DNA of 64,000 nt, from positions 12,249,529-12,313,528 of the forward strand of contig NC_135185.1 in the NCBI RefSeq assembly GCF_041146795.1. Direction: 5' to 3'. Shown piece after piece: positions 3,966-48,844 of the stretch. The position numbers and the translations under genes are program-made. The DNA is from Maylandia zebra. Taxonomy: Eukaryota; Chordata; Actinopteri; Cichliformes; Cichlidae. The notes under the pieces were generated by a model. That model made no database searches. It was not told the origin of the DNA and saw nothing but the letters and a program-made list of their open reading frames with translations. Each line of letters starts with the position of its first letter. Positions within the stretch are counted from its first letter, which is position 1.

Positions 3966-5880
3966 ATGCCAAACTGCTCGTCATCTCCGAGCATGAAGTA
4001 AGGAGAGCCTTCAAGAGAGTGAACACCAGGAAAGCAGCAGGACCAGACGGCATCCCAGGTCGTATCCTAAGAGACTGCGCATACCAGCTAGCTCCTGTGT
4101 TCACTGAGATATTCAACATCTCTTTATCTCAGTCGGTGATCCCCACATGCTTCAAAGAGTCCATCATTGTTCCTGTCCCGAAGAAACCCCACCCTGCTTC
4201 TCTCAATGACTATCGCCCTGTAGCCCTCACCTCAGTAGTGATGAAGTGCTTTGAACGCCTGGTCAGAGACTTCATCATTTCTTCACTACCAGACACACTG
4301 GACCCACTACAGTTCGCTTACCGTCCAAATCGTTCCACAGATGATGCCATCTCTCATCTCCTCCACACATCACTCACTCACTTGGACACTAGAAGGGGGA
4401 ATTATGTTAAAATGCTCTTCATAGACTACAGCTCTGCATTTAACACCATAATTCCCTCCACACTCACCACCAAGCTGGAGCATCTGGGACTCAGCTCATC
4501 TATGTGTCAGTGGATCTCCAACTTCCTAACTGGCAGACCACAGGCAGTAAGGATGGGCGGACATGTCTCAGCCTCCACCACTCTCAGCACTGGAGCCCCC
4601 CAGGGGTGTGTTCTGAGCCCCCTGCTGTACTCTTTGTACACATATGACTGTGTGGCCACTACCAGCTCCACCACCATCATCAAGTTTGCTGACGACACCG
4701 TCGTGGTGGGCCTGATCTCTGATAACAACGAGACGGCCTACCTGAAGGAGATTAGGAATCTGGAGAACTGGTGCCAGAGGAACAACCTCCTTCTAAACGT
4801 CAGTAAGACAAAGGAGCTGATAGTGGACTTCAGCACTAAGCAGGAGAGGAACTACCAGACCCCCGTCATCAACGAGTGCCCAGTGGAGAGAGTGGACAGC
4901 TTCAAATACCTCGGAGTTCACATCACGCAGGACCTGTCATGGTCCTGTCACATCAACACCGTGGTGAAAAAGGCCCGACAGCGTCTCTACCACCTCAGAT
5001 GCTTGAGAGACTTCCAACTGCCCTCCAAGGTGCTCAGGAACTTTTACTCGTGCACCATAGAGAGCATCCTGGCGGGAAACATCTTAACCTGGTTCGGGAA
5101 CAGCACCATGCAGGACAGACGAGCTCTACAGAGGGTTGTGCGATCAGCTGAGCGCACCATCCGCTCCGAGCTCCCTGACCTGCACTCAATCTACAGCAGG
5201 CGGTGCTGGACCAAGGCCAGGAAGATCGTGAAGGACCTCAGCCATCCCAACAACAGACTGTTCTCTCTGTTGAGGTCAGGAAAGCGATTCCGCTCCCTGA
5301 AGACCAACACAGAGAGACTGAGGAGGAGCTTCTTCCCGCAGGCGATACGGTCTCTCAATCACACCACCACACAGTACTGACCCACACATATGGTTCTTAC
5401 ACACACACTGGACTTTCTGGACTTTGGTTTTGCACAACACTGGTCACTATATTCTTCATTTCCGGTTAATACTTGTACAGCTGCTGTTATTGTGTATATA
5501 TTTATTTATATTTAGATTCCTTCATACATTCTTATATAGTTCTATATTGTGTATTGTGTATTTTGTTGTACAGTTATTTTATTTTCAACTTTAATTTATA
5601 TATTTATCTTTATCTTATTCTTCCCAGTTAAATTTACCCTTCATTCTAATTTGTGTTGTACAGTTATTTCATTTTTAACCTTAATTTATATTTTATTCCT
5701 TCCTAGTTAAATTTACCCTTTTTAATTTTTCATATTTATTTCCTATCTTATTCATAGCCTTTTCCTTTTTTGTTTTCTTTAGGTCACGAGCAGTTGTCCA
5801 AGCATTTCACTACATATCGTACTGTGTATGACTGTGTACGCGACAAATAAAATTTGAATTTGAATTTGAATTTGAATTTG
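3966..5880 (+). mobile_element. 5'-truncated non-LTR retrotransposon (LINE, jockey superfamily, Rex1/L2/CR1 group)
   Basis: The element begins inside the reverse-transcriptase region (in-frame residues [15 protein letters not shown] start about 3985) and ends in an A/T-rich 3' untranslated region with a short tandem tail of TTTGAA units at about 5848-5880. The endonuclease part is absent, which is typical 5' truncation by target-primed reverse transcription. The RT frame has no internal stops, so the insertion is fairly young. It is related to, but distinct from, the minus-strand LINE at 18.2-22.7 kb. The clade call rests on the RT motifs and the repeat tail and is not proven. Confidence 0.9.
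3985..5380 (+). CDS. LINE reverse transcriptase, C-terminal part of ORF2 (5' truncated)
   Basis: About 460 codons are open to a TGA at 5378-5380. The reverse-transcriptase motifs occur in order: [13 protein letters not shown] (finger region), [12 protein letters not shown], motif [12 protein letters not shown] with its catalytic aspartate near 4420, motif [13 protein letters not shown] near 4591, motif C FADD near 4684 with both catalytic aspartates, and FKYLGVHI near 4900. The C-terminal region ([13 protein letters not shown], then [11 protein letters not shown]) is the usual conserved tail of these fish LINEs. The enzyme reverse transcribes element RNA at a nicked genomic target. This copy lacks the N-terminal endonuclease, has no promoter and no natural start codon, so it is probably not expressed as a working retrotransposon. 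Confidence 0.9.
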
Positions 5881-19125: not shown

Positions 19126-20199
19126 TAGAGCTGGGCGATATATCGAGTTTTTAAAAAATATCGATATATTTTTATACGAGATATAAGATCTGACAATATC
19201 CTTTATATCGATATAGTCTATGTTACGTTATAATTATACTTGTGGAGCCGCAAGTTTGCCTCTCTTTCGTCCACTTCCGTCTCTACGCAACGTTACTCGG
19301 CCTCGCCTCTCTTTCACTGAACACAACTCCCCCTCCTCCCCCATCGCTTCACCTGCAGGAAGCGACAAGATGGACACGGCAAATCTCCGTTAACGAGTTA
19401 CTGCGCATCGCCCCGTGCGTGGGGCTGGACGGCGTCAATGTGTTAGCTAGCTAACCACGCTAACGAGCTAACCACGCTAACGCCATGCAGCCCAGAGGTG
19501 CTGCACGGACTAAAATCCTTTCATTTTCTCAAAAGTTGACAGCGCGCCTTATGTATGAATTCTGGTTGTGCTTGATGGCCGCGAACCGATTTTATGTGGA
19601 ACACGGCGCTCAGCAATCTGTCAAAAAATGTTTTAGTACGACTTTGGTAAGCTACGGAGCTGCACCGCTTGATGGATTGTCGGAGCATTACGGCTACTGA
19701 GGAGCCTCGCGGAGTGATACGTACTGTGCTTCAACGTAATATTACCGTATTGTGTGTGTATAAGGACCATAAATGGCACCTGTTAAGAGACGTGGTTGCG
19801 AAGCGGATTTCAAACTCCAGGCTGTCAGTCACGCAGTACAAGTAGGGAACAGAGCAGCTGTGAAATCTGTCTTTGTTACTATGCTCAGCGTCTTTTAGTT
19901 TACATTTTGACTGCACAATTGTGAGCTTTTTGTTATGCACAAAAACAACATTGTTTTCTTTTATTTATGGAGCATTATTATTTAATAAATGCTCATAATT
20001 TATTTTTGAGTAAATTTTATGTACATCTGCTCTATGTTAATAAAAGTGCCTGTGTGACATCTGGGACACAGCTTTGACTAAGAACTCTCTTCTTGTTCTT
20101 ACTTTATGGCTTTAAAAAAATATATCGAGATATATCTTATATCGCCATCCAGCTAAAAAATATCGAGATATGAATTTTGGGTCATATCGCCCAGCCCTA
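19126..20199. mobile_element. Non-autonomous hAT-like element, 1074 bp, inserted into the LINE
   Basis: The left end TAGAGCTGGGCGATATATCG is matched by the right end (reverse complement TAGGGCTGGGCGATATGACC). Perfect 8-bp direct repeats accggaag flank it at 19118-19125 and 20200-20207, and removing the element with one copy restores the LINE frame. TATCGATATA/ATATCGAGATA motifs repeat near both ends. The interior lacks a hAT transposase but contains a short helix-turn-helix-like reading frame (separate entry). Because it interrupts the LINE, it is younger than that insertion. Confidence 0.9.
19773..19898 (+). CDS. Micro-ORF resembling the pogo/CENP-B-type (psq) DNA-binding helix-turn-helix
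   Basis: A 41-codon frame starting ATG at 19773 reads MAPVKRRGCEADFKLQAV followed by the stretch HAVQVGNRAAVKSVF. The pattern K-R-R-x(4)-F-K-L-x-A-V-x(3)-A-x(3)-G-N-R-A-A is that of the N-terminal psq/CENP-B-like helix-turn-helix of pogo-type transposases and their relatives (K-R-R/K-S-Y-x(2)-x-F-K-L-x-V-V-E-x-A-E-x(2)-G-N-R-A-A-A-R-x-F). After about 34 residues the similarity stops and a TAG follows. It may be the first exon of a lost gene or a captured fragment. Translation is unproven. Confidence 0.45.
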   Translation: MAPVKRRGCEADFKLQAVSHAVQVGNRAAVKSVFVTMLSVF

Positions 20200-20207
20200 A
20201 CCGGAAG

Positions 20208-22669
20208 CTGCTCACTCTCTCCACAGCAGCGCCGTTGATGGTGATGGGGGTGTGTACTTCTCTGCACCTCCGGAAGTCCACTATCAACTCCTTTGTCTAT
20301 GCGACGTTGAGGGTGAGATGGTTGTCTTGACACCAGTGGGTCAGGGCGCTGACCTCCTCCCTGTAAGCCGTCTCATCACCGTTGGTGATAAGACCCACCA
20401 CTGTAGTGTCGTCCGCAAACTTCACAATGATGTTGGAGCTGTTAGTGGCTGTGCAGTCGTAGGTGTAGAGTGAGTACAGGAGAGGGCTCAGTACACACCC
20501 CTGTGGAGCACCAGTGTTCAGTGTGATGGGGGATGAGGTGATGCTGCCCAGTCTGACCACTTGGCGTCTGTCAGACAGGAAGCTAAGGATCCAGCTGCAG
20601 AGGGAGCTGCTCAGTCCTAGATCCTGCAGTTTCCTGTCCAGCTTCGAGGGAACGATGGTATTGAATGCTGAGCTGTAATCTACAAACAGCATTCTCACAT
20701 ACGTGTCTCTCTTCTCCAGGTGTGACAGGGCAGTGTGTAGTGTCAGGGCTATGGCATCATCAGTGGACCTGTTGTGGCGGTATGCAAACTGTAGAGGGTC
20801 CAGTGAGTCGGGTAGTGCAGAGCAGATGAAGTCCCTGACCAGCTTCTCGAAGCATTTGCTTACGATGGGGGTCAGGGCTACAGGTCGCCAGTCGTTTAAT
20901 GAGGAGATGGTGGAGGATTTGGGTACAGGGACGATGGTGGCCATTTTGAAGCAGGCTGGGACTACAGACAGAGAGAGGGAAAGGTTGAAGATGTGCGTGA
21001 ACACTCCAGCCAGCTGAGCCGCGCATGACTTGAGGACGCGGCCGGGAATCCCGTCCGGACCAGTAGCTTTGCGTGCGTTCACCTTCCTGAAGCACTTCCG
21101 CACATCCTCCTCAGACACAGTGTGCGCACTGACGTCATCCGCGGTGCGCACACTGTCCGGTCTCATGGTGTTCGCTGCGTCGAATCTAGCGTAGAATATG
21201 TTTAGATCCTCACACAGAGAGGCCGTGGTCTGCGGTGTGCTGGTTTTCCCTCTAAAGTCTGTGATCGTGTTTAGTCCCTGCCACATACTCCGAGGGTTGT
21301 CAAACTGTTGCTCCACCCTGTCCCTGTACTCACGTTTGGCTGCTTTGATCGTCTTCCGGAGTTGGTAATGTGCGTGTTTGTAGTCCGATGTGTTCGCGGA
21401 GGCAAAGGCGGTGTTCCGTGCCGCCAGTGCCGCGCGAACATCTCCGTTAATCCAGGGTTTTTGATTTGGGAAGGATTTAACTGTTCTGGATGGGACGACA
21501 TCTTCCATGCATTTCCTGATAAATCCACAGACTGAGTCTGTGTACTCATCAATGTCTCTGGCGGCCACGTGAAACATTTCCCAGTCCGCGTGATCAAAAC
21601 AGTCCCGCAGCGCAGACTCCGATTGGTCCGTCCAACAGTGCACCGCCCTCCGGGTTGGAGCTTCCTGTTTCAGCTTCTGCCTGTAGGCGGGCAGGAGCAG
21701 GATAGAGCGGTGATCTGATTGGCCGAATGGGGCGCGGGGGAGGGCTTTGTACGCATCCCGGAAAGAGGAGTAACAGTGGTCGAGTAGCCGGTTTCCACGT
21801 GTGTTAAAAAGGATGTGTTGATGGAGTTTTGGTGAGACTTTCTTCAGGTTTCCCTTATTAAAGTCTCCGGCTGTGATAAACGCTGCCTCTGGGTGTGCGG
21901 TTTCCTCGCTGCTGATCGCGCTGTACAGTTCCCTGAGTGCACGGTCAGTGTCGGCTTGTGGGGGAATGTAAACAGCCGTAATAATCACTGCTGTAAATTC
22001 CCTCGGTAGCCAGAATGGCCGGCACTTAATCATCAGGTACTCCAGGTCCGGTGAGCAGAAGGATTTGACCGGGTGCACGTTCGCATAATCACACCAGCTG
22101 TTGTTGATCATGAAACATACACCACCGCCTCTGCTTTTCCCAGTAAGATCCTGTGACCTGTCCGCGCGGTGCACAGAGAATCCCGGTAGTTGTATTGCGG
22201 AGTCCGGTACTTTGTCCGATAGCCAGGTTTCTGTGAGGCAGATCACGCAGCAGTCCCGCATCTCTCGCTGGAATGAGATCCATGCCCGAAGCTCGCACAG
22301 CTTGTTCTCCAGAGACTGCACATTAGCCAGTAATAAACTGGGTAACGGTGGTCTGTAAGTGCGCCGTCTCAGTCGAACCAGAACGCCAGATCTTCTCCCT
22401 CTGCGTCGGCGTTTGCGGCCTCCAGGGCCAGAGAACAAAGGCGTCTCAGGTGAGATGAATGGGGGGTCTGCAAACGGAGCGTCCGTGTTGCAAAACTTGA
22501 ACTCCGGAAAGTTATAAGAAAGACCGTCTTTTATGTCCAGTAAGGTTTGTCGGTCGTACACAAGGAGACAAGTGCTGCTCGTGAAAAAATAAAGGAAAAG
22601 TAAAATTAAACACAGAAGAAAGCCGTTGCTTGGGGGAGCTCGCGACGAGGCTGCCATACTCGGCGCCAT
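20208..22669 (-). pseudogene. LINE ORF2: endonuclease plus reverse transcriptase (N-terminal and central part)
   Basis: The frame starts at ATG 22669 (MAPSMAASSRAPP); an upstream ATG at 22747 lies inside the Tc1 element and is not used here. Endonuclease signatures are LLLANVQSLENK, ICLTETWLSD (catalytic Glu), FITAGDFNKG and FGQSDHRSI (catalytic Asp and His). Reverse-transcriptase motifs follow: [53 protein letters not shown] and KFADDTTVVGLI. The frame is open for 790 codons and then meets one in-frame TAG at 20297-20299, where relatives have Lys in NVSKTKE. The frame continues unchanged to the hAT insertion. The rest of the protein lies at 18657-19117. Confidence 0.88.
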
Positions 22670-22694
22670 CTTGTCATTTGTCAGATGATACGTA

Positions 22695-23991
22695 CACTCA
22701 ACAAAAAATATAAACGCAACACCTTTGTTACTGCTCCCATTCCCCATGGGATGGACGTAGAGACCTAAAATTCATTCCAGATACACAATATAACCATCCC
22801 TCCCAAACAGTGGTCACAAATCAGTCCAAATGTGTGGTAGTGGGCACATCTGCCATATTGAGATAATCCATCCCACCTCACAGGTGTGCCACATCAGGAT
22901 GCTGATCTGACATCATGAGTAGTGCACAGGTGTACCTCAGACTGTCCACAACAAAAGGCCACCCTGGAATGTGCAGTTTTTTGCGCTATTGGGGGTCTGG
23001 GGACCCAGAACCGGTCAGTATCTGGTGTGACCACCATTTGCCTCATGCAACACATCGTCGCATGGAGTCTATCAGATTGTCAATTGTGGCCTGTGGAATG
23101 TTGGTCCACTCCACTTCAATGGCTGTGCGAGGTTGTTGGATATTCGTGGGAACTGGTACACGCTGTCGTATACGCCGGTCAAGCACATCCCGAACATGCT
23201 CAATGGGTGACATGTCCGGTGAGTATGCTGGCCATGCAAGAACTGGGACATTCTCAGCTGCCATCTGCCCTGAACAATGTGAACCATGATTCATCCGTGA
23301 AGCGCACACCTCTCCAACGTGCCAGACGCCATCGAATGTGAGCATTTGCCCACACAAGTCTGTTACGGCGACGAGCTGGAGTCAGGTCAAGACCCCGATG
23401 AGGACGACGGGCATGCAGTCAAGCGTCCCTGAGACGGTTTCTGACAGTTTGTGCAGAAATTGTTTGGTTGTGCAAACCAATTGTTCCAGCAGCTGTCTGG
23501 GTGGCTGGTCTCAGACGATCTTGGAGGTGAACCTGCTGGATGTGGAGGTCCTGGGCTGGTGTGGTTACACGAGGTCTGCGGTTGTGAGGCCGGTTGGATG
23601 TTCTGCCATATTCTCTGAAACGCCTGTGGAGACGGCTTATGGTTGAGAAATGAACATTCAATGCACGGGCGACAGATCTGGTTGACATTCCTGCTGTCAG
23701 CATGCCAATTGCACGCTCCCTCATTGCTTGTGGCATCTGTGGCATTTTGCTGTGAGACAAAACTGCACATTCCAGGGTGGCCTTTTGTTGTGGGCAGTCT
23801 GAGGTACACCTGTGCACTACTCATGATGTCAGATCAGCATCCTGATGTGGCACACATTTGGACTGATTTGTGACCACTGTTTGGGAAGGATGGTTATATT
23901 GTGTATCTGGAATGAATTTTAGGTCTCTACGTCCATCCCATGGGGAATGGGAGCAGTAACAAAGGTGTTGCGTTTATATTTTTGTTGAGTG
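22695..23991 (-). mobile_element. Tc1-like transposon with long inverted repeats, internally deleted
   Basis: The ends cactcaacaaaaaatataaa (left) and ttatatttttgttgagtg (right) are inverted copies bounded by TA dinucleotides at 22693-22694 and 23992-23993, the Tc1/mariner target duplication. The inverted repeats are very long: about 290 bp on the left and 235 bp on the right, the right one lacking about 50 bp. The transposase relic inside is on the minus strand. At 1,297 bp it is shorter than the usual 1.6 kb. Confidence 0.93.
23043..23749 (-). pseudogene. Tc1 transposase relic, catalytic core largely deleted
   Basis: The N-terminal paired-type DNA-binding region is clear from 23749 down (MPQAMRERAIGMLTAGMSTR, then SVARALNVHFSTISRLHRRF and SNRPHNRRPRVTT). 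It continues past a frame change as LTPARRR-like and FTDES-like residues, where the first catalytic Asp sits. The C-terminal part follows almost at once: NVPVLAWPAYSPDMSPIEHV, which carries the third catalytic residue (Glu in SPIEH). The segment between FTDES and NVPVL, including the second Asp, is missing. It is a dead gene in a deletion derivative that could have moved only with transposase supplied in trans. Confidence 0.85.
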
Positions 23992-24216
23992 TAGATAACA
24001 AAGAAAATCCGCAAACACAGGAAGAGAACAAAACATTCTTCAAATTACTTTAAATCTTTTATCATAAAATGAAGTGAGATGTTTGCTATCACGACAATGT
24101 TTGAGAAAAGATCGAGCTTGAAATTTTGTTTCATACAGTTAATATCAGTTTACGTTTAGATTATTTTTTACATATTTCTGTGATAGAGTGAAGAACAATT
24201 AGTTTCGTTAAATAAA

Positions 24217-44504: not shown

Positions 44505-45444
44505 CACTGTTAACCTTTGCTGTATTTCTCACAGTAAAATACCACAAAATGCCCAGTAACTTACCTGAAAACATTTCTACAGTTAATTACTGTAATTTGC
44601 TTTGCATTATGGGTATATTAAGGTTATTTACATTTACTTACTGTATTTTTTAAAATTGCGGTAGTAGTTATACCTACCGTTAACACATTAGCAGTAGTGC
44701 TACTGTATTATGTGATTTGAATGGTTCATCATACTGTTTGTGCATTTTTACTCTTTCAGTGGTTGGTTGCAATAGTGCATTACATTTTAACTCTTTCACT
44801 GCCAACCATTTCCAGATTTTCCTCCAACCTATGCCATTTGTCAGTATGATACCAGTGAAAGTATTATGGTTTTGACTTTTTAGGGGACTTGCCTGTGTGT
44901 AAGGTTCAAGAATTCTGATCATCTAATCTGCTGCATGCAGTTGTATGCACATGCACAGCTGCTGCAAATGTGTGCTTGCCACTGCGTTGCCAAAGGCGAA
45001 CTTCAGTCAGTGGAGAATATTGTAATAATTTGGCGGAGGCTTCTCAGTCGAGCAGTAACTGAATTGCTCATTTACTGAACGTGCAACATGTACAGAACTC
45101 TTCTGGGAACTAGTCAACCCAACTTAGTGAAACACACACTGAATGCATGCTGGCCCCGCCCACCCACCTACCTCTACCAACCACCACTCCATATCCTGAC
45201 TGACATGACCTGTGATCCAGTGATTGACAGGAGAGGAAAGACAGTCCAACTTTGTTAACTCTTCATTACGATATGCTCGAGAGGACAAAAGATTTTGCAC
45301 CTCGTTATTGTTGGGCCTCTGTGTGGAAACTGCAAACGGGACGTCATAAGGTAATGCAAAGGACTCTCCTACCTAACATACTCGTTTATTAATTCTTAAG
45401 AGCATATATATTTTTTGTGTGTGGGGGGAGGGGGCTTAAAATCG

Positions 45445-46172
45445 GTGTTAGCTTGGTCGGAATAGCACATTAGCTGAATTATTCTGGAAAAAATAGGTTG
45501 TGTGTGTTTTTTTTCTTTTCTTATTTAAATATATATTTAGATATATATTTTCCACGGGGAGGGGCGAAGAACACAGGCGCAACGACAGTCTTTGTCTTTT
45601 TCCCGCCGAGTGTGGTGCATTGTTCTCCTGCGCTTCTGTTCTATGACTATTGAGAAGCTGGCCATGCTAACAGTGGGACATTTAGCTTCAGCTAAAGCAG
45701 CAGGTAAAAATACACATTTAATGAGAATAAAGAAAGACAACTTTTTTTTGGAAATTTAGAGACTGCTAAAACAATCTTATCCAGTTTTGAGCTTGCTCAT
45801 GTAGGTTAGCCTGCTTTATTTAATTTTGTGTGAGCTGCAGTACACAACATTAAAAAGTTAATATAACATTAGGTTGGTGGCGTGAGGAACTCCAACCTAA
45901 GTTTAATATTTATTTATTTTTTTAAGTGGGAAGGGGAGCATGTTTTTTTCCCTTTAATACAACGTCTTCCAGGGTCTTTTTCATAGGAAAACCATGTAAC
46001 GTCTGTGTTAGGTTGGTCAAAAGAGCAATTAGTTGAATTATTCTGGAAAAGATGGGTTGTGTGTTTTTTTTCTTTTATTTACTTATGTAAATATATTTTT
46101 CAAGGGTTAAATAAATGCAACATTAAATTAACAATTGTCTCTCTGTCTTTTCCCGCCCAGTGTGGTGCATTG
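45445..46172. repeat. Internal direct duplication in the CACTA-like element
   Basis: The segment 45445-45622 recurs at 46005-46172: both have gtgttag(c/g)ttggtc, gaattattctggaaaa, a gtgtgtttttttt run and end in (t)cccgcc..agtgtggtgcattg. The period is about 555 bp. The repeat lies just upstream of the SAMD3-like start codon and may duplicate promoter or 5' untranslated sequence. Confidence 0.75.
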
Positions 46173-46252
46173 CTGTTCTCCTGCCCTTGCTGGCTGCGCT
46201 GACAGTGTGATGTAGCCTCAGTGTTTGTGTTTTAAAGGCTTTTTCCACCAAG

Positions 46253-47197
46253 ATGTCTGTTGAGAGAGAGATGACCTTACCCATCACACCAAGGGTAATA
46301 GCGCTTGGTAAGTAAATACTTTCAATCCTCTTGTAATATTTTTGTAAAAAATCTATGTAATTATTGTGGTATTTGTACCCACAACAACTTACTTAACAGG
46401 GGTTTGTCTGTTTTATATTGTATAAAAATAGAATACACACAGTTTGCTGCTGTTTCTCTTATTTATTATACACAATGACCAACAGGAAAAAACAGCCTAA
46501 CATTTCAGCACAGGCCAAAATGCCAAAACATTAGGCAGTTTTTTCCTGTAATTGATCATAATTTTCATTACATAATAAATAATAAGAGAAATAGCAGCAA
46601 ACTGTGTGGATTCTATTTTTGTACAGTGTGAGGCCTGCTATCCACCATTCTTGTGGAAACCTTATTTGTAACGGTGAGCACATTGTCTTATTGGACTCTT
46701 GTCTGTTTTTAGGGAATAATTTCATGTCTGCAAGCCGCTGGATGATCAGTTTGGAGGGCAAGGTATTTTATGAGCCTGAGCAGATGCATGACTTTGCCAG
46801 CACCCTTGCTGTCTTCTTTGCGTCATACTACGTTTTCAACCTTGAGTATCAGGAGTCAGCGTCCATCACACAGGAGATGATACAGAGGTAAATACTTTAC
46901 ACCATTAAAGCTTACACCATTTAAGAATGAAATATATGTGATAGCTTGACTACAGTTGCAGAAACATATAGGTGATTGCTGTAATGTATGTTTTAATTTT
47001 GAAATTAAAGCAGCCTTTTTTCCGTTAAAAGGTTCTTTGTGAGGATCAATCCAGACATGGGAACAAAATGCCCTGCAAAACTTGGTACAAGCTGCAAGAC
47101 AGATCGTGTCGTAAAGAGGAAGGTTACAAGCATCAGCTCTCGGATCACCACCTTCCTCCAGCGGCTCTCTGAGTTTGAATGGAGGACTTCCAACTAG
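46253..47197 (+). CDS. SAMD3-like C-terminal protein, 3 coding exons, inside the CACTA-like element
   Basis: Exons 46253-46307, 46713-46887 and 47032-47197 have good GT/AG junctions and join in frame to 396 nt, 131 residues. The protein runs MSVEREMTLPITPRVIALG, then SASRWMISLEGKVFYEPEQM, FASTLAVFFASYYVFNLEYQ, ITQEMIQRFFVRINPDMGTK and RITTFLQRLSEFEWRTSN. This matches my memory of the C-terminal domain of the many 'sterile alpha motif domain-containing protein 3-like' proteins of teleosts (TPR.I.LG...W.ISIEG...FFASYYVFNLQY...FIQR.F..INP..GTK...L..FEW). The SAM domain itself is absent, so this is a short derivative with its own ATG. All three exons are open and the two introns sit at codon phases 1 and 2, implying a spliced gene rather than a processed copy. 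Function unknown. Confidence 0.65.
46417..46626. repeat. About 210-bp foldback (palindromic) insert in SAMD3-like intron 1
   Basis: Left ttgtataaaaatagaat then cacacagtttgctgct and tctcttatttattat pairs with right attctatttttgtaca, agcagcaaactgtgtg and ataataagaga. The pairing continues inwards to caggaaaaaac / gttttttcctg. Almost the whole segment folds on itself, like a foldback MITE. It lies wholly within the intron 46308-46712. Confidence 0.85.
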
Positions 47198-48068
47198 GTA
47201 AGAATACAGAGATGATAATATCTTTTACATAGCTGATAATTATATACATACTATACACTCATCCATACAACAGTATGAATGATCTCAGACAGATGTGAAC
47301 AAGTGAATAACCTGAGCAAACATGAATATTGATGATGTGTCTTTGACAGGTGGTGATAAAGACTACGCTGAACCCGACCATCCTGGTAACGGAAATCTAA
47401 ATCCCATGTCACATTCTATTTCCTGGGACCCACTGATAATTATTACATTTTGTAAATGATTTTTGTTTTACAATTGTAATAGTTTATTTAATGTTCATGC
47501 TGGTGGGTTTGACCTGTTTTTAGTGGAATGAAAAACTGTTTTCCTTAAAAAAATCAGACACAGAAAGGTGAAGGACTGTGTAGTTTTCATGTACGCTTCT
47601 ATTTATTTTGGTTATTGACATTGTTTTTATTCAGTTGAAAAATGTTTTTCTTGTTAAAAAAAATATCAACAATAAATGTTGGTTTAATTCACTATTCTGA
47701 GACTACTTTATTGAATTATATTGTTTTTGTAAATGTTCTTATATTGAATATGAATGTTAACATTATTTTTATTTGCTGTAAAACACAATTACAGTCTAAA
47801 CAAATTATACTGTACACAATTACAGTGTTATACCATAAACCACATTTGCAGTACAGTGATACTATAAAACTTAATCACGGTAAGTCTTTCTAACTGTAAA
47901 CCACGTTTACAGTAAAGCTGTTATACTGTAATATATGTTTACAGTAAAGTGGTTGAACTGTAAAACATCACAACAGTAAAGATACTGTAGATCAGTAATT
48001 ACAGTAACTTACTGGCAATAGTGTTGCCAGTAAGTTGCTGTAAAAATACAATAAAATGTCTAACAGTG

Positions 48069-48844
48069 TTGCAGAAACTCAAAGAAACCAGTCAGCACAC
48101 ATCTTCAAACTTAAGAGTAAATCAAATAAAACAAAATTTCAAAAAAGGCCTTGAAACTAATTATCCAAACTTTGTCCTACATAAAAGAGAAATTTTATTT
48201 TAAATAAAAAATGACAAATTTCACTATTTCCACATTTAATAGTATAAACCCAATAAGTTTTATGGTTTTTAGTGGAATAATAATTGTTTGTTTTTGTTGG
48301 CTTCTTAAATTGTATTTTAATGGTTTATTTTTGGCTTTTTGTACTTTGCCGTTGCTTGTCAGGCCATGACTGAGGTCTTTCTCAGCAGGAAGGCTGTTAA
48401 AGTGACAAAAGACAATTAAAAATCTGCTTACATTCTCTAAGGCCATCCAGTGTAATTGAATTTAAGATATTATCAGTCAGCTGAATGGGAGTTATCATTG
48501 CGTCTTCAACCAGAATGGGTCTTCAACACCTTCTAGACTCTAGAAGGTGTTGAAGACCCATTCTGAAATCTTAATGAATGATTCTTTCATATATTCTCCT
48601 TCCGTGAACGGCTTCCCATGCTTGACTATTTGCTAAATGGCCATAAAACTTGCATAGTTGAATTTGCAGACTTCATCCACTTCTTCAACTGATTTTTCCT
48701 CAGATCAGCCTTCCGCTTCAGTTCTTCAGCTTTATTTCTCTCCCTCCGGGTATTGTTCTGCAAAGGCTGTGTTTTTATTTTGGAAATGTCTTGCGACATT
48801 TGACATTTTATTGTTAGCCAATCTCTCTACACAAATTAGGCATA
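48069..48844. other. Spacer with a perfect palindrome
   Basis: No gene was recognised. The only notable structure is the palindrome at 48511-48565 (separate entry). Confidence 0.5.
48511..48565. repeat. Perfect 27-bp-arm palindrome with 1-nt centre
   Basis: The arm cagaatgggtcttcaacacc + ttctaga (48511-48537) is matched without error by its reverse complement (48539-48565) around a single C. No transposon ends are evident. Confidence 0.97.

Follow-up and report, generated by a model that had tools for sequence, protein, structure and literature searches.

A short CACTA-like transposon carrying the last exons of a SAMD3-like second gene in Maylandia zebra

Positions 44505 to 48068 of a 64,000-nucleotide stretch of Maylandia zebra DNA (contig NC_135185.1; hereafter the window) raise the question of why a spliced SAMD3-like frame lies between two transposon-like ends with no transposase coding beside it. 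An earlier note, made from the letters of the window, had read this interval as a CACTA-like transposon with an intact three-exon gene that is either cargo picked up from the host or the element's own accessory protein. We place a probability of about 0.9 on the interval being an internally deleted, non-autonomous CACTA-like (CMC/EnSpm-type) cut-and-paste transposon that derives from two-gene parents, a reading that draws on the ends, target duplications, empty sites, longer copies, gene order and shared junction observed in this genome. In these parents, two genes would share one orientation between CACTGT ends: first a DDE transposase, Tnp2-like and with a C2H2-like head, and then a second open reading frame (ORF2) for a SAMD3-like protein made of a short SAM-like head, a middle module and a C-terminal domain. 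One deletion would have removed most of both genes, leaving the ends with their motif arrays, a duplicated 5' region and the final three exons of ORF2 in place. The element and its borders are as follows.

44505..48068, plus strand (the orientation of its genes): non-autonomous CACTA-like element, 3564 bp, with the same ends in copies elsewhere in the genome
44503..44504: left target duplication, TT, matching 48069-48070
48069..48070: right target duplication, TT
44505..44734, plus strand: left end, CACTGTTA with four ACTGTAA/ACAGTAA-type motifs
47761..48068, plus strand: right end, TAACAGTG with 12 such motifs and a near-perfect hairpin at 47999-48043

The tips CACTGTTA at the start and TAACAGTG at the finish belong to ends that form an imperfect inverted repeat of ∼90 bp, with a local score of 38 against a maximum of 34 among 1000 random 100-bp pairs. 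The motifs are distributed as 4 in the left 230 bp, none in the intervening 3026 bp and 12 in the right 308 bp, and 2 of 1000 shuffles (left) and 0 of 1000 (right) were as rich. The proposal of two ends with subterminal ACTGTAA arrays at this place is therefore borne out. Because the CACTGTTA motif by itself is not significant within 64 kb (5 seen, 3 expected), other copies were needed to establish the ends.

We looked for these copies in the species' own assembly (962 Mb, 63 contigs), where the searches score the best candidates, so that all counts given here are lower bounds. The 131-residue protein of the element yields at least 96 exon matches, and the 10-kb surroundings were compared for 20 loci: L011-L027, which are the 17 other members of the closest group, and three more distant loci, L028-L030. 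DNA similarity extends far past the exons in all 17 of the closest group. In nine copies (L011-L018 and L027), the match spans the element from its first base to its final or penultimate one at 96-99% identity, some with inserted or extra DNA; the remaining copies give partial matches with at least 90% identity over the main pieces. When the matches are compared by eye, the left end occurs at 14 places, all of them loci of the closest SAMD3-like group, and 17 of the 18 full matches of the right end fall at such loci, the exception being C3:8244963. The SAMD3-like exons do travel with the element, as had been supposed.

Both ends are in view in 11 copies, the window copy included, and the tips are intact in nine of these (L024 and L027 have damaged tips). 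In each of the nine, the outer two bases match (TA in five, TT in three, TG in one), and three bases never match. Empty sites, which the earlier note had asked for, were found for the copy covered by this test, L015, a copy inserted in a repeat. When its two flanks are joined with one TA between them, eight places without the insert match over the junction (8 of 40 matches). These results bear on the idea that two unrelated short miniature inverted-repeat transposable elements (MITEs) happen to bracket a host SAMD3-like gene, which was named at the outset as a finding that would overturn the transposon. Each end is indeed short when taken alone, and the CACTGTTA motif is not rare. However, eight other insertions (L011-L018) in different flanks have both intact ends around the same sequence, with empty sites at one of them. 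Copies that share both ends but differ in their flanks refute the two-MITE arrangement, and we leave it next to no probability.

If the interval is one transposon, its missing parts should be looked for at the point where the coding sequence breaks off. The coding part of the window copy is laid out as follows.

46222..46223: deletion junction, where longer copies hold additional coding DNA; the same junction in the window copy, L011-L017, L022 and L027
46238..46307, plus strand: ORF2 exon, internal in longer copies, with the ATG of the 131-residue frame at 46253
46713..46887, plus strand: ORF2 exon, AG/GT retained in 17 of 17 other copies examined
47032..47197, plus strand: last ORF2 coding exon with a TAG stop, whole in 15 of 17 copies, broken up or missing in L023 and L026, and without the TAG in L021

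Four copies (L018-L021) have extra DNA at 46222/46223. In L020 and L021 this is a part of ORF2 alone. L018 and L019, each with its own internal deletion, together hold a C2H2-like stretch (repeated C..C..H..H patterns, judged by eye), a DDE-type core (DGFEVVNPLGSGKKKHK ... GDNLGSH ... FCRYC), a C-terminal part of the transposase, a SAM-like exon, a middle SAMD3-like module and the exons of the window. The transposase coding lies upstream of the SAMD3-like exons in both, so the expectation that longer copies include a transposase turned out to be right. By sequence comparison, the window copy is an internal-deletion derivative of a larger transposon.

The junction is identical in ten copies, which suggests that the deleted form arose once and may then have been amplified in trans. 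In the tree, the window copy and L011-L017 split from all others with a support of 0.96, and their noncoding parts differ by 0.8% on average. This argues for a recent amplification of the deleted form, presumably via a transposase made elsewhere. We take a single deletion event from the identity of the junction, though the tree leaves L022, L023 and L027 outside. L024 and L025 have a different junction that is common to both.

Is the SAMD3-like part a regular second gene or a passenger? With the L018 DDE core as the query, there are at least 151 matches, many of them in open frames of 800-930 codons, and the middle modules of L019 and of L047 give at least 65 and at least 66 matches. L047 is an independent relative of 7275 bp with CACTGT ends, a TA/TA duplication and a stop-to-stop transposase frame of 896 codons, followed by ORF2 exons. 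In a blind test (one of one), a 374-codon ORF2 relative with a different head, L049, was present in the 3 kb that follow a transposase with 43% identity to the query core; as a query, L049 gives at least 113 matches of its own. As an observation apart, this second ORF2 class (L049, 969-2090; 107 loci) often stands behind open transposase frames of 800-930 codons.

We then counted pairings among 60 SAM-type ORF2 loci, 107 merged L049-type loci and 150 listed transposase cores of the at least 151; to the L019 module's matches were added 14 of the 66 matches of the L047 module, judged by eye as non-overlapping. A core lies within 12 kb of 24 of the 60 SAM-type loci and 70 of the 107 L049-type loci. 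In all 94 pairings, ORF2 is on the same strand and downstream, with a median gap of 1684 bp (SAM-type) or 1450 bp (L049-type), where chance would give ∼0.2 and ∼0.4 pairings (∼0.6 in total). Seen from the transposase, 92 of the 150 listed cores are paired (one core is counted with two SAM-type loci, and one has partners of both ORF2 types). The middle parts of co-located ORF2 loci are 32-53% identical to the query among the stronger matches. A third family (L028-L030) has CACTGTTAG ends, an AA/AA duplication and the last ORF2 exon in L028, and a left end alone in L029. Between this family and the window, the last ORF2 exon has a dN/dS of 0.07-0.09, with synonymous sites saturated, which indicates that ORF2 is conserved as a protein between families.

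The alternative is a captured fragment of a host SAMD3-like gene, which the element now spreads as a passenger. The window copy, with SAMD3-like exons and no transposase, looks like this, SAMD3 is also a gene of mammals, and 36 of the 60 SAM-type loci are without a listed core within 12 kb. Capture does not account for ORF2 being found at the same place and in the same orientation in distinct families, nor for an adjacent ORF2 at 92 of 150 listed cores; these observations indicate a resident second gene. We consider cargo improbable, although an ancient capture before the element families split is possible. Sequence comparison thus supports the SAMD3-like protein as the element's own ORF2: of the two origins offered earlier, the accessory protein is upheld and the host cargo is not supported. 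The suggestion that spread of the element explains much of the multi-copy SAMD3-like family here is upheld as well. We also considered the SAMD3-like part as the C-terminal half of one transposase polypeptide. This is weakened by a Met near the start of the SAM-like exon in L019, L047 and L036, which in L019 and L047 has an AG immediately ahead of it.

Two further groups of SAMD3-like matches were seen in the genome. On C2 (seven matches) and C33 (six matches), for example, C2:9861237 and C33:1000947, the last ORF2 exon occurs alone in 62-codon frames, 86-88% identical; these contigs have no right-end match, and the exon is possibly carried by another repeat. Paired, 58%-identical copies of the SAMD3-like C-terminal part lie at C16:241353/252230, C21:38276581/38293991, C5:674099/691577 and C10:139626/155002. 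They are intronless, have one TAA per matched stretch, lie 11-17 kb apart and are in several cases near contig starts; they are perhaps a duplicated subtelomeric fossil.

Does the short form still encode something of use? The 131-residue frame joins 46253-46307, 46713-46887 and 47032-47197, with GT/AG at both introns, and the probability that one given frame stays free of stops over 131 codons is 3e-4 at the stop frequency of the element. The ATG comes after a splice acceptor (AG at 46236-46237), and coding exons lie upstream of it in longer copies; the exon at 46238-46307 is therefore internal and not the first exon it had been taken for. Of the intact three-exon gene described previously, the open frame and splice sites are real, and what is left after the deletion is the last three coding exons. 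The protein has no significant match in Pfam (best E value 0.18) or PDB (best E value 0.22).

The protein might itself be functional, for example, as a truncated ORF2 that acts as a repressor or helper and so aids the amplification of the short form. Consistent with this, the frame and splice sites are kept in all eight young short copies, and the second of the three exons is kept at all 14 left-end places. Yet among these eight copies, coding columns are as variable as noncoding ones (9 of 396 and 72 of 3068), seven of the nine coding changes are nonsynonymous, and no purifying selection on the frame was found. With a mean divergence of <1%, intact frames are expected without selection. L027, an older short copy, has a stop inside the frame. 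We therefore regard a function for the 131-residue protein as unlikely, and the frame in short copies is probably a remnant.

Several observations weigh against an origin from two-gene CACTA-like parents and are set out together here. The window's own family yielded no complete member, which makes its parent element a reconstruction. In the tree, L022, L023 and L027 fall apart from the other short copies, in a part where branches are of near-zero length. L030 has non-matching flanks (TA and CA). In addition to the 36 SAM-type loci above, a listed core within 12 kb is missing for 37 of the 107 L049-type loci, as is an ORF2 match for 58 of the 150 listed cores; decay, deletion or too much divergence could explain these unpaired loci, or some could be host genes. 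The Pfam matches mostly fall short of their cut-offs. The Pfam tnp2 model (PF02992) gives E 0.035 with L047, below the cut-off, and nothing at E 1 with L018; on the other side, one core, C3:16045222 (40% identical to the query), passes the cut-off with 29.3 against 28.6 bits. SAM_TNK is below its cut-off with L047 (E 0.05) and L036 (E 0.02) and absent from L019. The best Pfam match of the L036 head is HTH_51 (E 0.004), and the L019 head has a weak match to DUF6842 (E 0.14). The C2H2-like stretch has no zinc-finger match in Pfam, and no zinc-finger model does better than E 4.6. When the SAM-like exons were used for a profile search of PDB, no SAM chain was listed; the best match was protein A (E 0.0012 over 19 residues). 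Finally, an in-frame splice of ORF2 to the transposase is conceivable from the sequence of L019.

How would a two-gene element of this kind move? CACTG would be the cutting site of the transposase, with ORF2 attaching to the subterminal arrays and bringing the two ends together. TnpA of En/Spm is the comparison model for this action of ORF2; in tobacco, the products of tnpA and tnpD are reportedly both required by Spm. By analogy, we give roughly even odds to ORF2 acting like TnpA, that is, binding the arrays and joining the ends by self-association via its SAM-like head. As far as their sequences go, the heads fit self-association weakly. In L049-type ORF2, the SAM-like head is replaced by a stretch that matches Coilin_N (E 0.006), a ubiquitin-like fold; the L049 head is possibly ubiquitin-like and perhaps PB1-like. 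The SAM-like head is deleted from the window copy.

The relation to SAMD3 itself was addressed by a comparison with a provisional sequence of the human protein. Its letters score 32.5 bits against the ORF2 profile (best of 200 shuffles, 3.5); against L049 ORF2, they give E 3e-10 in a two-sequence blastp over ∼220 residues and 25.9 bits with phmmer (best shuffle, 2.3). If this provisional sequence is correct, the cellular gene and ORF2 would be homologous: either one gave rise to the other, or both go back to a shared source. Mammalian SAMD3 is regarded as an ordinary cellular gene. A tentative and rather less probable proposal is that SAMD3 and many teleost SAMD3-like genes descend from a CACTA-like ORF2. 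ORF2 would then be the vertebrate counterpart of TnpA, coating the arrays, polymerizing via a swappable head (SAM-like or ubiquitin-like) and joining the ends, and one copy would have been domesticated as SAMD3.

Our results suggest that, in this genome, many "SAMD3-like" genes belong to transposons and not to the host. In papers on fish, samd3 or samd3-like appears in lists of pathways, markers or associations, where it is handled as a gene of the host (PMC7037442, PMC10298005, PMC11258905, PMC8945855). Such annotations merit checking as possible transposon ORF2s. These results offer a testable answer to the nature of the multi-copy SAMD3-like genes, as the second genes of abundant CACTA-like transposons.

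The remaining features of the element are listed here.

45442..45703, plus strand: duplicated 5' region, copy 1, repeated with 46002-46192; a likely exon of the 5' untranslated region with a donor GT at 45704
46002..46222, plus strand: duplicated 5' region, copy 2, shortened by an internal deletion
46419..46625: foldback, MITE-like inverted-repeat stretch in an ORF2 intron, 51-bp arms, present in sister copies
47198..47349, plus strand: probable intron in the 3' untranslated region, with a GT donor after the TAG and a TTGACAG acceptor at 47343-47349
47671..47676, plus strand: AATAAA polyadenylation-type signal

We infer a promoter or untranslated-region role for 45442-45703. The repeat of the 5' region (45442-45638 and 46002-46192) could represent two promoters for two genes. 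The foldback predates the spread of the sister copies, since it is common to them. Viral, bacterial, phage and plasmid collections yielded no relatives; two viral loci (L001, L002) were rejected as chance 18-mers in phage-like DNA. Elsewhere in the window, 22686-23995 is a Tc1-like element (by eye) with inverted repeats of ∼144 bp that are 98.6% identical, and it adjoins a minus-strand sequence at ∼20180-22680 that resembles a long interspersed nuclear element (LINE). A LINE reverse transcriptase fragment at 4000-5870, presumably Rex1-like, ends in an AATTTG repeat, and its part 4097-4831 shares 71% identity with opposite-strand sequence at 20273-21004. No tRNA and no Rfam match were found anywhere in the 64-kb window.

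What kind of transposon is this? Members of animal EnSpm/CMC have CACTG tips and 2-3-bp duplications, and we take the element to be of this kind. Strict CACTA elements have CACTA...TAGTG tips and a 3-bp target duplication, according to PMC4158355, which also describes the full-length plant element as two open reading frames, a transposase and an ORF2 that aids excision and transposition in specific families. EnSpm/CACTA is listed as a Repbase class in PMC5753468. Here, the tips are CACTG...CAGTG in 9 of 11 copies, and the two damaged-tip copies have neither CACTA nor TAGTG; the duplication is 2 bp in nine of nine intact-end copies, and the empty sites hold a single TA. Motif arrays are present subterminally at both ends. 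A DDE transposase and an ORF2 lie between the ends of L047 and, with deletions, of L018 and L019; the window copy lacks this pair. Because the tips and the 3-bp duplication differ and tnp2 passes its cut-off at a single core, we use the name CACTA-like and not CACTA. The earlier classification holds in this sense, through the arrays, ends and two-gene relatives, and not in the strict one.

The element resembles plant CACTA/En-Spm, as described in PMC4158355, in its inverted repeats starting with CACT and its transposase plus ORF2, whereas it differs in its CACTG tips, 2-bp duplication, SAMD3-like ORF2 and C2H2-like stretch before the DDE core. A SAMD3-like ORF2 in animal EnSpm/CMC elements was not described in the literature searched, which excluded subscription journals and Repbase reports. 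With known animal EnSpm/CMC-type members, the element shares CACTG tips and a short duplication. The vertebrate gene SAMD3 is similar to ORF2 by the provisional human sequence and differs in being regarded, in mammals, as an ordinary cellular gene. The element is a CACTA-like variant with a SAMD3-like ORF2, outside strict CACTA, and it provides a candidate animal counterpart of CACTA ORF2/TnpA as well as a lead for SAMD3 as a domesticated transposon protein.

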